From the IMG/VR virus record IMGVR_UViG_3300048928_000088, positions 1 to 47,464 of that record: DNA of 47,464 nucleotides, one strand, 5' to 3'. The notes under the pieces are model-generated. The model saw nothing but the letters and a program-made list of their open reading frames with translations, ran no database searches and was not told where the DNA came from. The stretch comes from a virus. The position numbers and the translations under genes are program-made. This document shows positions 2,977 to 20,184 of this stretch, in pieces (the first letter of the stretch is position 1; each line of letters opens with the position of its first letter).

Positions 2977-3056
2977 TTATCGATCGGTGGTTTCGATCAA
3001 GAGGGAAGCATAGAATGAATGGTTTGCGCTTGGGCGGGATGATGTTTTAGTTGTCA

Positions 3057-10903: not shown

Positions 10904-12736
10904 TCAATTCACAGCGGTAGCAAACGATGCGTTTGTTGTCGCCCTTTTTGCCTGCTGACTAATGCTCTGAGTGAGAGAATCGACAGTCTGAGGATTGCTG
11001 TTAACGTTCACTGTGTTGATATGGGTACTGTTGGTAATCTGCGACGGTCCGCCTCCAGATGCCAGCTCATACGGCCTGCTGTCAGCCATTCTTCCCTGTG
11101 TGGCATAGTAATTTCTGGCATTACCCATGTTGCCGTAGACTTTGCCTGTGTACTCTCTGGTTTCTTTGGGTAGTTGAGAAATGTCACTGCCATTGGCAAT
11201 CCACTTGTCAACATTACCCATACCCCAGTTATACGCACGCAGAGCATTGTCGACATTACCATTGTACCGCTTAAGCAATTGGCGCATGTAAACGGAAGCA
11301 GCCGCGCGGGATTTGCTGGGGTCTAACCTGTCGTCAAATTGTGAATTCACGCGCAAACCGAGGTCTCTGGCTGTTCCAGGCATCAACTGAAACGCGCCGG
11401 TAGCACCTGACACGTTATAAGCTAGCGGGTTTCCGCCAGATTCAGTCATCATTATGCCGTGAAGCAGATCATCCATTCCTCCAGGTGCCCCCGCCATTCT
11501 TGCGGATTGACCGTACTGTTCAGCCTCGCCAAAACCAAGAAACGACTTAACGTCATCCCATGTCATGAATGGCTTTTTATCTTCATGCACCTTGTCATAA
11601 AGATAGGAGCCTACATCCTTCCCTTGCCTGCTTGCCTCATCGCGTGCCTGGTCTATGCCGTGGCTCGCCGCTGCAGCTGCAATGGCTCCCATGACTAACG
11701 GATTTGTTCTAAGTCCTGCAGCCAGGAGAAGTAGCAGCGCTGTAGCTCCACCCACTGAGTCCGTGAGCTTCTTAATGGAATCGCCCGCGTCACGGAAGAA
11801 CCCAATGATGTCGCCATGGTGCTCGCGTATCCAGTCGCCAAAGTCTTTCATGGCGCGGATAACCTCAGGAGCAAAGGCAATCGCAAGGTCCTGTCTCAGT
11901 CGGTCAAACTCAGAGTCGAGTTGACCCAGCGTTACCACTAAGGCCTCCTGCTCCTTCACCTGCTGAGCAGTGATGTTTGACTTCTTCGTCTCAGAGTCCA
12001 CAAGTGACTTAAGCTCGCCAGATTTAATCTTGGCTGCATCTGTCGGGTCGAAGCCTGCGGCAGCCATAACCTGCATCAGGTTCTCTTGTGAGTGATTTTT
12101 CCCGTACCGGGAGAACTCAGCAAGGGCTTTGCTCGGGTCGCCGAGGTTGTTGATATTCAGTCCTGTGCGAGCGCCCAACACCATCAGGTTTTGAGCTGCG
12201 CCGGTTAGTCCACCAAAAATAGTAGGGTCTGCGATGTTAGCCAGCGCCATACGAGCGCTACCAGACGCACCAATGAAGGCGTCACCATTAAGCCCAGCCT
12301 GCTGGAAGCCGCGGCGAAGACCGAACATCTTGTTTACGTCTGTGCCGAAGAACTTAGCCTGATTGCTTGCACGAACAATTTCGTTTGATGTGGAGGTGAA
12401 GAGCTGTTTAATGCCATACAGTCCAGCGCCAATCCCAAGGAATCCGGCTGCTGCAACATAGGCACCTTTAAAGGAGGATGCTGCCGCTGAACCAAATGAT
12501 TTAACATCAAACGTGGCATCAGAGATTACCCGCCCAGTTTTCCGAGTAGAGCGTTGAATATCATCGCCAGTCTTGACGATTACCTTGCCAGTCTGCCTGG
12601 AGGTTTCATCAATGTCTCCGAAGCTTTTATCTACTTCGTTCTGGAGTTCCTTAACGCCCTCTTCAACCTTCTTCTTGCCGTTCAGGAACTCATCGGCCTT
12701 GATTGTGACCTTATAGGCCAACTCATTGATAATCAT
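10904..12736 (-). CDS. Tail tape measure protein with lytic transglycosylase domain
   Basis: 610 residues. N-terminal region is helical and polar (about 1-90), followed by hydrophobic stretches (FKGAYVAAAGFLGIGAGLYGI and ATALLLLLAAGLRTNPLVMGAIAAAA), then a C-terminal SLT lysozyme-like domain near 410-530: LLHGIMMTESGGNPLAYN with the catalytic Glu in MTESGG, GAFQLMPGTARDLG and ALRAYNWGMGNV. It sets tail length and, after ejection, can open peptidoglycan locally. Its start overlaps the chaperone frame by four bases. The short length fits a short contractile tail. Confidence 0.93.
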   Translation of the reverse strand: MIINELAYKVTIKADEFLNGKKKVEEGVKELQNEVDKSFGDIDETSRQTGKVIVKTGDDIQRSTRKTGRVISDATFDVKSFGSAAASSFKGAYVAAAGFLGIGAGLYGIKQLFTSTSNEIVRASNQAKFFGTDVNKMFGLRRGFQQAGLNGDAFIGASGSARMALANIADPTIFGGLTGAAQNLMVLGARTGLNINNLGDPSKALAEFSRYGKNHSQENLMQVMAAAGFDPTDAAKIKSGELKSLVDSETKKSNITAQQVKEQEALVVTLGQLDSEFDRLRQDLAIAFAPEVIRAMKDFGDWIREHHGDIIGFFRDAGDSIKKLTDSVGGATALLLLLAAGLRTNPLVMGAIAAAAASHGIDQARDEASRQGKDVGSYLYDKVHEDKKPFMTWDDVKSFLGFGEAEQYGQSARMAGAPGGMDDLLHGIMMTESGGNPLAYNVSGATGAFQLMPGTARDLGLRVNSQFDDRLDPSKSRAAASVYMRQLLKRYNGNVDNALRAYNWGMGNVDKWIANGSDISQLPKETREYTGKVYGNMGNARNYYATQGRMADSRPYELASGGGPSQITNSTHINTVNVNSNPQTVDSLTQSISQQAKRATTNASFATAVN

Positions 12737-12936
12737 CGCTGCTCCTGATGCTTATGCCAAACGCGTTGGTTGAAGTTTTCAACGGATATGATTTCCAGAA
12801 GGTTGTACATATCTGCTACGGAAAGCTTCTCCTGAAGTTCCAGATAAGAGGCTTTGCCGGAGCAGATAATTGCGTTAATCGCTGAAGAGACGTTTACAGG
12901 CGAGACTAGCCTAGCCGGAGGAGTCTCCTCTTCCAT
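12733..12936 (-). CDS. Tail assembly chaperone, downstream (T-like) frame
   Basis: 67 residues if started at the ATG at 12936, which has only a poor ribosome site (AGTACCCCTTC). The frame is open upstream without a stop back to a slippery T TTT TTA in the preceding gene, so it is probably made mainly as a -1 frameshift extension of that gene: 131 residues of the first frame, ten linker codons and this frame, 208 residues in all. Position just before the tape measure is that of lambda GT and its many analogues. The frame resembles the small DUF6889-type proteins found at this place. Confidence 0.75.
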   Translation of the reverse strand: MEEETPPARLVSPVNVSSAINAIICSGKASYLELQEKLSVADMYNLLEIISVENFNQRVWHKHQEQR

Positions 12937-12972
12937 GAAGGGGTACTTTACTCTCCGGCGATCGTTAAAAAA
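12914..12972 (-). promoter_or_regulatory. Programmed -1 ribosomal frameshift signal
   Basis: In mRNA sense, GA T TTT TTA ACG places the heptamer T TTT TTA (12972-12966) exactly in phase with the zero frame. Six bases later GCCGGAG (12959-12953) can pair perfectly with CTCCGGC (12920-12914), a 7-bp GC-rich stem with a 32-base loop. Slipping back one base continues through N-D-R-R-R-V-K-Y-P-F into the downstream frame with no stop. All three elements (site, 5-9 base spacer, stem) fit known -1 signals. Frequency cannot be read from sequence. Confidence 0.8.
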
Positions 12973-13358
12973 TCGAAGTTAACCTGGAAGACTTTATCCA
13001 ACAGTTTGCGGATGGTTGAGACCTCTTCAAAGTCCAGTTCACCTTTAACTTGGCGCTGCTGTCTTGCGCCTTCATGGATAATGACAATATCAACCGTGGA
13101 CATCAGGCGGTCTCGTAATTGACGCGCAACATCAGGAGATGATGCAGAGATAACGCTCAGACCGACAGTCGCCAGTCCTGCACACCCCATGGCGATTACA
13201 TCCGCAGGAATCTGGCTGTAATTGGAATCACCCATCGCGCGGAAGATATCCTGCGCTAGAGTGTCGGCATCCCATGCCGACATTTCTGTGATGATAAACT
13301 CTTTGCCTTTGTCGCGACCTTCTTCTTCGACGATGAAAGGAATTTCCTTACGAGCCAT
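12948..13358 (-). CDS. Tail assembly chaperone, upstream (G-like) frame
   Basis: 136 residues: MARKEIPFIVEEEGRDKGKEFIITEMSAWDADTLAQDIF and a helical C-terminal half ending EVSTIRKLLDKVFQVNFDFLTIAGE. The middle contains a small hydrophobic segment (VIAMGCAGLATVGLSVI). It lies between the tube gene and tape measure, where tail chaperones that coat the tape measure are encoded. The last five codons of this frame follow the slippery site, so the frameshift product differs only from Leu131 on. Confidence 0.82.
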   Translation of the reverse strand: MARKEIPFIVEEEGRDKGKEFIITEMSAWDADTLAQDIFRAMGDSNYSQIPADVIAMGCAGLATVGLSVISASSPDVARQLRDRLMSTVDIVIIHEGARQQRQVKGELDFEEVSTIRKLLDKVFQVNFDFLTIAGE

Positions 13359-13792
13359 CAGATTGCACTCCGGGTAACCGTTTCAAAATGGAATACTGCT
13401 GGGCGAGGCTGGAGAACTCGGCGACCCGGAGGGGTTGGTGTCCAGGTGTATAGCACGCCGTTCACGAAGTTCCACTTAGCTCCTAACGCTGGTACCGTCA
13501 GGGTGGCATTACAGGCAAACGCAGAGATTGCCGTTCGCTCAGCAGCAATCCAGTCATCCAGCAAGCTACTGGCATTCGACGTTGCCATCAAGTTGATGGT
13601 GAACTCTGTAGGGTTGAAGATGAAGCCAGCATGGTATTTACCATCTGCTGACATCATGTCTTCTTTGTTCTGAAGTGCACCGGTTTCAAACATGTTGTCG
13701 GCTGCGTAATCATCTACATCAAAACCGCCAGGGTAGTAAGATGGCACGACGATGCGCAGCTTGGAATTAGCACTTGTAATATCAATTGGCAT
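13358..13792 (-). CDS. Tail tube protein (DUF3277 family)
   Basis: 144 residues, beta-rich: SYYPGGFDVDDYAADNMFETGALQ, GKYHAGFIFNPTEFTINLMATSNAS, VPALGAKWNFVNGVLYTWTPTP. The pattern and its place directly after the DUF3383 sheath gene identify it as the DUF3277 tube protein of contractile-tail phages. It stacks inside the sheath to form the DNA channel. Starts after GGACGACAAA; stop overlaps the chaperone start. Confidence 0.85.
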   Translation of the reverse strand: MPIDITSANSKLRIVVPSYYPGGFDVDDYAADNMFETGALQNKEDMMSADGKYHAGFIFNPTEFTINLMATSNASSLLDDWIAAERTAISAFACNATLTVPALGAKWNFVNGVLYTWTPTPPGRRVLQPRPAVFHFETVTRSAI

Positions 13793-13802
13793 TTTGTCGT
13801 CC

Positions 13803-15293
13803 TTACAGAATCGCGGTTGAAGACATAGTGATAGATTGGATCAGCTGACCATCTACGTAGTAGAAGATTGCACCTTTCAGGTCGCGTTCCAGGCGAGCAG
13901 CACCAGTCTGAGCAGGGATAAACAGATACCAGCCTTCAGAGTAAAGGGTCGCTGAGATATCTTTGCCCACGGTGTTATTCACGATGCGAATCTGTGCCTG
14001 GTCTAGCACCACGCCCTTCTGAATTGCACCAAATGTCAGAGCCTGGTTTGCTACATCGATTGTCGCTGCCTGAATCGCGCCATAGCCGTTCTGGTTGAAC
14101 GGATAGGACTGATTATTGGTGAACAGGTTGGCATAAGCTCCTACGAGGTTTGCGTTAATCCATACCTGATCAATGAAGCTGTCCAGCCAGACGAATTTCC
14201 CGGAGATGGCGCCATCAGACGCATACTGAGCCATCGTCTTGTTCAGGCTGTATGAGCCGTAGAAGTTATAGCCGTTTGACTTCAGGGCTTGCGCAGTAGC
14301 CAGATCGCTTACGTTAGGTGCAAGACCAGAGAAGCCACGGAATTTGAACGATACGCGCCCGTTCGTGCGTGCGAAGTCTACAGAAGCGGCATATGCCAGC
14401 GCTGTAACGCCGTACAGATAAGAGCCGTACACCGGGAAGATATTCTCATACCCGTTAGCCACCACAACCTTTTGCACGAAGCAGTTAGCATTGTTAGCGA
14501 TAGTGCCTGCAGCGGTAGTGTCATGCACCACGTAGCCGAAGCGGTTTTTACTGCCATTTGCCCACGCACACAGTTCGGTTTTCTGGTCATCCGTTAATTC
14601 AATCAGTGAGTTAAACAGAATCCAGTTCTGGTTGGTGTTGATGATGTTATTCATCGTGTCAGTCAGCGTTACCGCATCAGAGCCCGGAGAAACAGTCGCA
14701 GCAGTTGCTTGCGTCAGCAGCAAGCCTGTTGCCAGTGCGCCAGGAGATGCATAAGACACCTGGCTATCTGCGCCGGTAGTCACTGATCGAATGATGAAGC
14801 GATTGGCAATAGGAAGCCACTCAACAGATACCTTGCTCGCGCCGATTCCTGTCTGCAGCTTGGATGCGATATCGCTGAAGCTTGTTGCTGTGGAAAGGTC
14901 GATGGACGAGCTGGTAGTTGATACGCCATCTACTGTGAGGGTAATAGTACCTGCAGGGATTGCCTTCAGTGTCGCCAGCGCAACACCTTTCAGATTGCCA
15001 GATAGCAGGTAACCAGCCACATCAGCGGTGATAACGCGGTACATCAGCAATTCGCCAGGAATTACGGATGAGTTTTCGTAGCCGTTGAAATACTGCTGCG
15101 CGGCCAGAAATTCTTTTGACGTGCTTCCCATAAGGGCTGACACATCAGCGGCAGAGAAGTAAGAGACAACTGAGCCAACAGGCACCAGTTCATTGTCAGT
15201 CAGCATCAGGCCGTTAGCATCAACCGCAGAACCGGCAGGTGTAACGACGTTTGGCGTGATATTAAAATCTACGGATAAAGGGATTGTGCTCAT
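13803..15293 (-). CDS. Tail sheath protein (DUF3383 family)
   Basis: 496 residues. N-terminal beta domain (IPLSVDFNITPNVVTPAG), a variable middle and the conserved C-terminal sheath-like part with AYAASVDFARTNGRVSFKFRGFSGL, GYNFYGSYSLN and FVWLDSFIDQVWINANLVGAYANLF. DUF3383 proteins are the contractile sheath of a group of enterobacterial myoviruses. Its length, its place before the tube gene, and the downstream baseplate J/spike set show the virion has a contractile tail. Confidence 0.9.
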   Translation of the reverse strand: MSTIPLSVDFNITPNVVTPAGSAVDANGLMLTDNELVPVGSVVSYFSAADVSALMGSTSKEFLAAQQYFNGYENSSVIPGELLMYRVITADVAGYLLSGNLKGVALATLKAIPAGTITLTVDGVSTTSSSIDLSTATSFSDIASKLQTGIGASKVSVEWLPIANRFIIRSVTTGADSQVSYASPGALATGLLLTQATAATVSPGSDAVTLTDTMNNIINTNQNWILFNSLIELTDDQKTELCAWANGSKNRFGYVVHDTTAAGTIANNANCFVQKVVVANGYENIFPVYGSYLYGVTALAYAASVDFARTNGRVSFKFRGFSGLAPNVSDLATAQALKSNGYNFYGSYSLNKTMAQYASDGAISGKFVWLDSFIDQVWINANLVGAYANLFTNNQSYPFNQNGYGAIQAATIDVANQALTFGAIQKGVVLDQAQIRIVNNTVGKDISATLYSEGWYLFIPAQTGAARLERDLKGAIFYYVDGQLIQSITMSSTAIL

Positions 15294-18915: not shown

Positions 18916-20184
18916 TTAGCTCCGTTTCATTTTGGTTGCGCCAGGGAATGCCTTAGCGAAAGAAGTGGTTGCCGCAGAGTCCATACCGATGGTGGTGGCA
19001 GGTTTGCGAGCTTCTGATTTCTGGCTGATCGTGAATTCAACCATTGATTTCAGTGCTGAGGGGTGAACGCCTTTGTGGTTAGCGCCTACAGAGTCGAGGG
19101 CGAAACGGTAGATGTCTTCAGCTGAGTCCATCGCTACCAGGCTTACATCGCCAACGAGAGCGCGAACGCACTCACGAGCTTCGTTTGCCTGACGAATGCG
19201 ACCCATGACATTCTCTTCAGCTTTACGGATTAATACGGCATCCATAGCAGCCTTGTCCTCTTTGTCTTCATCGTCTTCATCTTCGGCTTTCTTGTCCTTT
19301 TTATCGGACTCTTCATCTTCAGCCTTTTTGTCTTCTTTTTTGGACTCGTCTTTATCCTCGTCCATCGCTTTGTCTTTCTTGTCGTCGCGCTCTTCTTTCT
19401 CTTCCTCTTCGAGTTCGAGATTTTTCTTGACCGCTTTTTCGACTTCTTCGAGGTCTGCGTCTTGTGCCAAGAATGGCTTCAGAGCAGCCGCGAGTTGTTT
19501 GGCTTTTGCCATCTCTTTTAGCTCCAGTGATAATGAATCCCCGACAACGACGTCGGATCCGGCTCTGCCCTCTATTACGAGTGCAACGTGGTTCCCGACG
19601 ATATCGCGCATGACGCCATCGTATGGCTGGCCTTCATGTACGCCGGGGGTCATGTCAGCTACATATCTGTAGGCCGACGAAAGCTCTTTCTTCTCGTCTG
19701 TTTCGATTCCAGCGATGGAGTCTGCATCCCAGACGACAAGCGAGTTCTTAAGGTAAGTCCCGTCAAATTCGGCATCAGTACCAGTAGAGCCAACCACAGC
19801 CATCTTCTGAGGGTCTGCGGCAGTAACCGGAATGTGTTCATTGAGGAGCGGGATGTTGTTGAATGTGGTAGCCGCTTTTGCGAGTTCTTTGGGGTCGCGC
19901 AGCAGGTAGTAAACTTTGTCAGGCTGCAGGCCTAACGCTTTGGAATTGGGGATTTCACGGCCATAGTAGGGGCAGATGTTAGCCTTGCTGATTGGCGTCA
20001 GTTCGATGTGCAGACGACCGTCACTGTCAAAGGAACGCACCGTTGCCCTGTCGAATGCCAGAGCTGAGTCACCTGCATAGCCATTGGCATATGCCGCACG
20101 CTCAACCTCTTCTGCCTTTTCTTTTGTATCGAATGGCCCTTCTTTTCCCCAATACCATTTGCCACTTTTTTCATGGACTGGCAT
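18916..20184 (-). CDS. DUF2213 head maturation protein (protease/scaffold)
   Basis: 422 residues. Residues 55-230 are the DUF2213 domain ([64 protein letters not shown]), thought to be a prohead serine-protease relative. Residues 245-325 are an extreme run of Glu, Asp and Lys, a charged coiled or disordered scaffold segment. The C-terminal 90 residues are helical and may contact the capsid. A combined protease-scaffold role is likely. The first 45 residues form an extra small domain ([20 protein letters not shown]). The strongly biased central codons create a long serine-rich shadow frame on the other strand that is not a gene. Confidence 0.86.

Follow-up and report, generated by a model that had tools for sequence, protein, structure and literature searches.

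Gene order and features at the locus

The window analysed here is the whole of the virus record IMGVR_UViG_3300048928_000088, a stretch of 47,464 bases whose tail module lies on the minus strand in the order DUF3383 tail sheath, E217 gp32-family protein, 136-aa chaperone, short ORF and tape measure. The chaperone and the short ORF occupy two overlapping frames between the tail tube and sheath genes and the tape measure gene, which is the arrangement of the lambda G/GT type. The features of the locus are as follows:

13803..15293, minus strand: tail sheath (DUF3383); PF11863, E 1.3e-105; PHROG 205, tail sheath
13358..13792, minus strand: structural protein of the E217 gp32 family, probably the tail tube; PF22764, E 4.6e-17; overlaps the chaperone start
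12948..13358, minus strand: G-like upstream tail assembly chaperone, zero frame, 136 aa
12966..12972, minus strand: putative slippery heptamer T TTT TTA, in phase, conserved in close relatives
12960..12965, minus strand: spacer ACGATC, 6 nt
12951..12959, minus strand: stem 5' arm GCCGGAGAG, with the covariation counts given below
12948..12950, minus strand: zero-frame stop TAA, 15 nt past the heptamer and within the stem loop
12914..12923, minus strand: stem 3' arm CTC-C-TCCGGC, core CTCCGGC at 12920-12914
12733..12966, minus strand: T-like -1 frame extension, NDRRRVKYPF...HQEQR, 77 codons plus stop TGA; PHROG 3976 and family alignment
12934..12936, minus strand: internal ATG of the second ORF (67 aa as a gene caller would have it)
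10904..12736, minus strand: tape measure protein with an SLT transglycosylase domain; PF01464; PHROG 2013

The ATG of the tape measure gene (10904-12736, minus strand) overlaps the T stop codon as ATGA, suggesting translational coupling. Upstream of the capsid genes, at 18916-20184 on the minus strand, the window also encodes a protein whose C-terminal half contains a long K/E/D-rich low-complexity run, and this run may be a scaffold or protease-scaffold region.

The proposed frameshift signal in the window

An earlier note on this DNA had proposed that two tail-chaperone frames, lying ahead of the tape measure gene, are linked by a -1 shift. Its reading of the site stands: the heptamer T TTT TTA at 12972-12966, in the correct phase, and the six-base spacer (ACGATC, 12965-12960) are confirmed base for base. 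The chaperone ends in ...GAT TTT TTA ACG ATC GCC GGA GAG TAA, and codons 129-131 of this first ORF (13358-12948), GAT TTT TTA, place the heptamer in the X XXY YYZ phase, with Y being A or U, close to the end of the first frame. In the -1 frame the sequence runs AAC GAT CGC CGG AGA GTA AAG TAC CCC TTC ATG..., the NDRRRVKYPF stretch by which the note had connected the slip site to the downstream frame, and it stays open as far as the stop at 12735-12733; the predicted fusion, recomputed as 131 + 77, has the 208 residues proposed. No Shine-Dalgarno sequence stands at the usual spacing ahead of the second ORF's ATG (12936), in line with the note's view that this ATG lacks a good ribosome site. The 7-bp stem GCCGGAG/CTCCGGC keeps its coordinates (12959-12953 pairing with 12920-12914, loop of 32 nt) and turns out to be the local version of a conserved 9-bp helix. 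The link between the two frames is strongly supported by conservation among relatives.

Two candidate lines of evidence from the window itself were set aside. The count of TTTTTTA in the window, 12 found against 7.7 expected, is uninformative, and single-sequence folding was rejected as proof of a signal: the fold reaches -22.6 kcal/mol with a z of only -1.46, and 21 of 200 shuffles were equally good. With 12 heptamers in the window and a modest fold z, a heptamer and stem seen in a single sequence do not settle the question.

Conservation in close relatives

We drew relatives from IMG/VR, GTDB genomes, phage records and E. coli chromosomes, which gave 291 readable loci with 192 different sequences around the site; 63 distinct genes with an NFxF motif make up the close relatives. 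The slip codon F130 is TTT in all 63 of these, compared with 38% TTT among their other Phe codons, and L131 is TTA in 62 of the 63 (TTG in one), compared with 7% among their other Leu codons. The wobble base of the preceding codon is T in 62 of 63, though the residue it encodes is D, N, G, S or, once, E. Conservation of this kind lies far beyond chance.

The substitution pattern changes frame along the locus. Across 204 sequence pairs, each at least 80% alike, 2009 of 2686 differences (75%) upstream of the heptamer fall at zero-frame third positions, and after the zero-frame stop 3083 of 4154 (74%) fall at -1-frame third positions. The 25-nt overlap of the frames is almost frozen, with 65 differences over all 204 pairs, and the zero-frame stop is kept at the same offset in 56 of 58 relatives.

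Selection in the -1 frame extends upstream of any start codon. The ATG of the second ORF is not conserved and is missing from many relatives, and in some of these no start codon at all occurs for 160 nt. Lineages without the putative ATG still keep RRRVxYPF, a peptide that lies 5' of its position and is encoded by the -1 frame alone, which is direct evidence for translation of this frame from a point upstream of the ATG.

In one near relative (L090, near position 3001) the first T of the heptamer is replaced by A (A TTT TTA), with the stem and the -1 frame kept. The slip site may have changed naturally by this single base, or the base may reflect a sequencing error.

The downstream stem

The conserved structure is a 9-bp helix with a 5' arm at 12959-12951, a 3' arm at 12923-12914 and a 1-nt bulge. 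It begins six nucleotides past the heptamer, inside the 5-9 nt range for stimulatory structures, and is supported by covariation. In the stem-bearing class, comprising 29 distinct sequences, alignment columns 14-22 pair with columns 50-59 around one bulged base; 94% of the helix cells are paired and ten are changed on both sides, a result matched by none of 500 shuffles. Slid controls gave 31-59% paired cells and zero double changes. RNAalifold recovers the same helix core unaided. For one sub-clade an alternative register, with the bulge shifted by one step, is equally good.

Stems of different sequence also begin six bases past the heptamer in relatives from Xenorhabdus (L130 and L133, stem z about -5) and Neisseriaceae (L120 and L123), at about 30% protein identity. 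A universal downstream stem was nevertheless rejected. A stem of at least 7 bp starting 4-9 nt downstream occurs in 22 of 61 clusters, against 10.5% at random positions, and no stem was detected in Edwardsiella GF-2, Yersinia, L040/L052, L060 or L110 despite the same heptamer; because several such sub-clades have no detectable stem, the stem is not required family-wide. On these alignments the stem is a putative stimulator that is specific to clades, and the slip site is the wider constant.

The TTTTTTA relatives without a stem include L046, L054 (Edwardsiella GF-2), L040, L052 and L036. In some stemless relatives (GF-2, L040) AAGGT or GAGGT stands about 9 nt 5' of the slip site and resembles the dnaX stimulator; such an upstream Shine-Dalgarno-like enhancer is present in some sequences and inconsistent across the family, so we do not claim it.

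The two protein parts

The first frame belongs to a known family of tail assembly chaperones: the window's G part matches PHROG 1932 (tail assembly chaperone) with an E of 3.5e-45. Pfam PF21822 (Phage_TAC_15) is matched by 7 of 29 G homologues and not by the window protein itself. The AlphaFold model of the G part resembles models of viral tail assembly chaperones, including Acinetobacter phage AB1 gp01, and searching the PDB for folds like that of the G domain returned nothing usable. The T part corresponds to PHROG 3976 and is modelled as a three-helix domain, with a pLDDT of about 94 over the helical part; the searches found no Pfam family and no solved structural relative for it.

Distant relatives and changed or lost slip sites

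Over the whole set, an in-phase XXXTTT heptamer within a stretch open in the -1 frame was found at 140 of the 192 distinct loci, as TTTTTTA (80), TTTTTTC (30), TTTTTTT (13), TTTTTTG (11) and GGGTTTT (6). In distant relatives the heptamer drifts to TTTTTTC, TTTTTTT, TTTTTTG and GGGTTTT and therefore stays X XXT TTN.

In a Klebsiella-type clade of 47 distinct but closely related loci the heptamer is lost, and the site reads T TTT GTA, T TTT GTC, T TTC TTA or T TTC TTG; examples are L058:3001-3474, L212-L262, L263 and L265. The -1 frame and the T domain are kept here, with no start before the domain in those loci that we read through. The earlier note had proposed aligning the region in relatives and had named, as evidence against its claim, homologues that keep both frames and lose the heptamer. 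The alignment bears out the heptamer, its phase and its spacing in close relatives, and shows that heptamer and stem are not universal, since the Klebsiella-type clade and L090 deviate. Homologues of the kind named do exist, in the 47 Klebsiella-type loci and L090; because the Klebsiella-type -1 frame is open without a start, the loci of that clade speak for a changed slip site and not against frameshifting. We infer that the Phe-tRNA may slip alone at these sites.

The T domain can also be joined to a chaperone by plain translation. In the Burkholderia phages Bcep781, Bcep1, Bcep43 and BcepNY3 and in many Xanthomonas phages it follows, as an in-frame fusion, a divergent segment resembling a chaperone (E 2e-15 for T, a weak match for G), and a separate chaperone is the next gene in Bcep781 and PhiXhv-1 and lies one gene further on in KPhi1. 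Such fusions stand at L302:1249-2168 (Bcep781 gp47, gp46), L298:613-1559 (Xanthomonas phage PhiXhv-1) and L303:1201-2485 (KPhi1). The in-frame fusion gives independent support for T as the chaperone's C-terminal extension, and together with a separate short chaperone gene it appears to be a two-gene alternative to the frameshift.

These patterns raise the possibility, to which we give slightly less than even weight, that one family reaches its short and long products by several routes: tandem slippage on six T followed by A, C, T or G, or on three G and four T, with stems that are specific to clades or absent; slippage of a single tRNA on U_UUY in the Klebsiella-type loci, once the heptamer had been lost; and an in-frame fusion plus a short gene in Bcep781 and the Xanthomonas phages. 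If true, the family would let one ask which ratio is selected and how recoding arises and disappears.

A proposed mechanism and its alternatives

The best reading of the locus is a myophage with a DUF3383 sheath that would make a frameshifted tail chaperone of the lambda G/GT type. We are highly confident, from the comparison of sequences, that a -1 programmed ribosomal frameshift yields two proteins from one mRNA, a 136-aa G-like short chaperone and a minority 208-aa G-T fusion. Ribosomes with Phe-tRNA on UUU in the P site and Leu-tRNA on UUA in the A site would pause at the stem six bases on; a fraction would slip back by one base in tandem, with both tRNAs re-pairing on UUU UUU, after which translation would continue as N-D-R-R-R-V... 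and end at the stop that immediately precedes the tape measure gene. The sequences show the heptamer, its phase, the stem, conservation, covariation, the dual-frame substitution pattern and the domain family; slippage in vivo, its frequency, its tandem mechanism and the roles of the two products are what we infer.

On the model of lambda gpG/gpGT, coating of the tape measure protein would fall to the short form, and the long form would bring in tail tube subunits through its C-terminal helical domain. With the HIV hairpin downstream, UUUUUUA makes E. coli ribosomes shift at eukaryote-like rates (PMC7282821), and in synthetic constructs in E. coli UUUUUUA was far less shift-prone than AAAAAAG (PMC5009743). 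Its low proneness to shift is consistent with the stem being kept here. It also counts against the frameshift reading, as do the modest stability of the single-sequence stem, the sub-clades that have the heptamer and no stem, and the imperfect heptamers of the Klebsiella-type clade and L090.

The same fusion would arise by transcriptional slippage, with the polymerase stuttering on the six T and some mRNAs gaining one U. The site is indeed a homopolymer run, and relatives L104, L116 and L210 carry seven or eight T. Six T, however, is a short run for polymerase slippage. Six relatives use GGGTTTT, and these count against it, because four T are too few and the site is still a valid tandem-slip heptamer. 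In close relatives, moreover, the seventh base is kept and so is a covarying RNA stem at ribosomal spacing. We regard slippage by the polymerase as very improbable at the window's site. In L104 the slip site holds eight consecutive T (GAT TTT TTT TTC), where transcriptional slippage would be more plausible.

That the two frames are separate genes, the second starting at ATG 12936 by reinitiation and no fusion protein being made, is less probable still: an ATG does stand shortly past the zero-frame stop and annotators do call a separate small ORF there (for example in E. coli L059), but the loss of that ATG in many relatives, the conserved -1 peptide ahead of it, the frozen slip codons, the want of a Shine-Dalgarno sequence, annotated starts that vary among records and cut into the T domain, and the in-frame T fusion of Bcep781-like phages all speak against it.

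Comparison with known systems

Frameshifted tail chaperones are textbook knowledge (lambda, P2 and many others). Lambda has a slippery sequence of the GGGAAAG type, different from the one here, and a non-contractile tail, whereas the present phage encodes a contractile-tail sheath. Gene position, overlapping frames, the -1 shift and a pair of short and long tail chaperones are common to lambda gpG/gpGT and the present locus (PMC5009743); lambda produces the two at a gpG:gpGT ratio of about 30:1 (PMC5009743).

A heptamer built on a run of U had been taken by the earlier note as unusual for phages, a view that T TTT TTG in P2 and the GTTTTT motif of Vandenendeviridae and Andersonviridae do not support. 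Phage P2, with gpE/gpE+E', is also a myophage with a -1 shift just upstream of the tape measure gene. Its annotated E/E' site reads GG TTTTTTG (record annotation and sequence); compared by site and gene position, the first six bases of the heptamer are identical and the seventh is G in P2 and A here. A 2025 paper describes the conserved GTTTTT motif in the tail chaperones of Vandenendeviridae and Andersonviridae (PMC12846349). In these phages, including Adele, the short chaperone likewise carries a conserved poly-T -1 site at its end, and the second frame is mostly annotated as a separate hypothetical protein (PMC12846349); they differ in the motif, GTTTTT as against TTTTTTN here, and in their larger genomes. 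The T domain finds a match in the large Pseudomonas phage Boevelstad (E 1e-3), whose site is G GTT TTT.

The gag-pol signal of HIV-1, U UUU UUA, is the same heptamer followed by a hairpin and functions with E. coli ribosomes (PMC7282821); there is no homology, and the resemblance is one of mechanism only. Bcep781 (gp47+gp46) and PhiXhv-1 (Xhv1_0050+0051) carry a T domain belonging to this family (E 2e-15) beside a chaperone gene, in Bcep781 near the tape measure gene. Unlike at the present locus, T there continues in frame from a chaperone-like protein and the short chaperone has a gene of its own, with no frameshift needed.

In none of the inspected records of the chaperone family is the long chaperone annotated as a frameshift product: annotations give separate hypothetical ORFs or none, and gene callers leave an orphan ORF, shorten it or omit it. 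We found no description of frameshifting for this DUF3383-phage chaperone family or for GF-2 in the open-access PMC literature, and an earlier description outside it is possible. Recognition of the signal puts right the annotation of many prophages, enterobacterial, pseudomonad and other, and yields a well-aligned set for comparing slip site, stem and domain over large divergence, including lineages with a changed heptamer or none. The frameshift trick is well known in phages; what would be new, and for which the comparative case is very strong, is its occurrence in this chaperone family.
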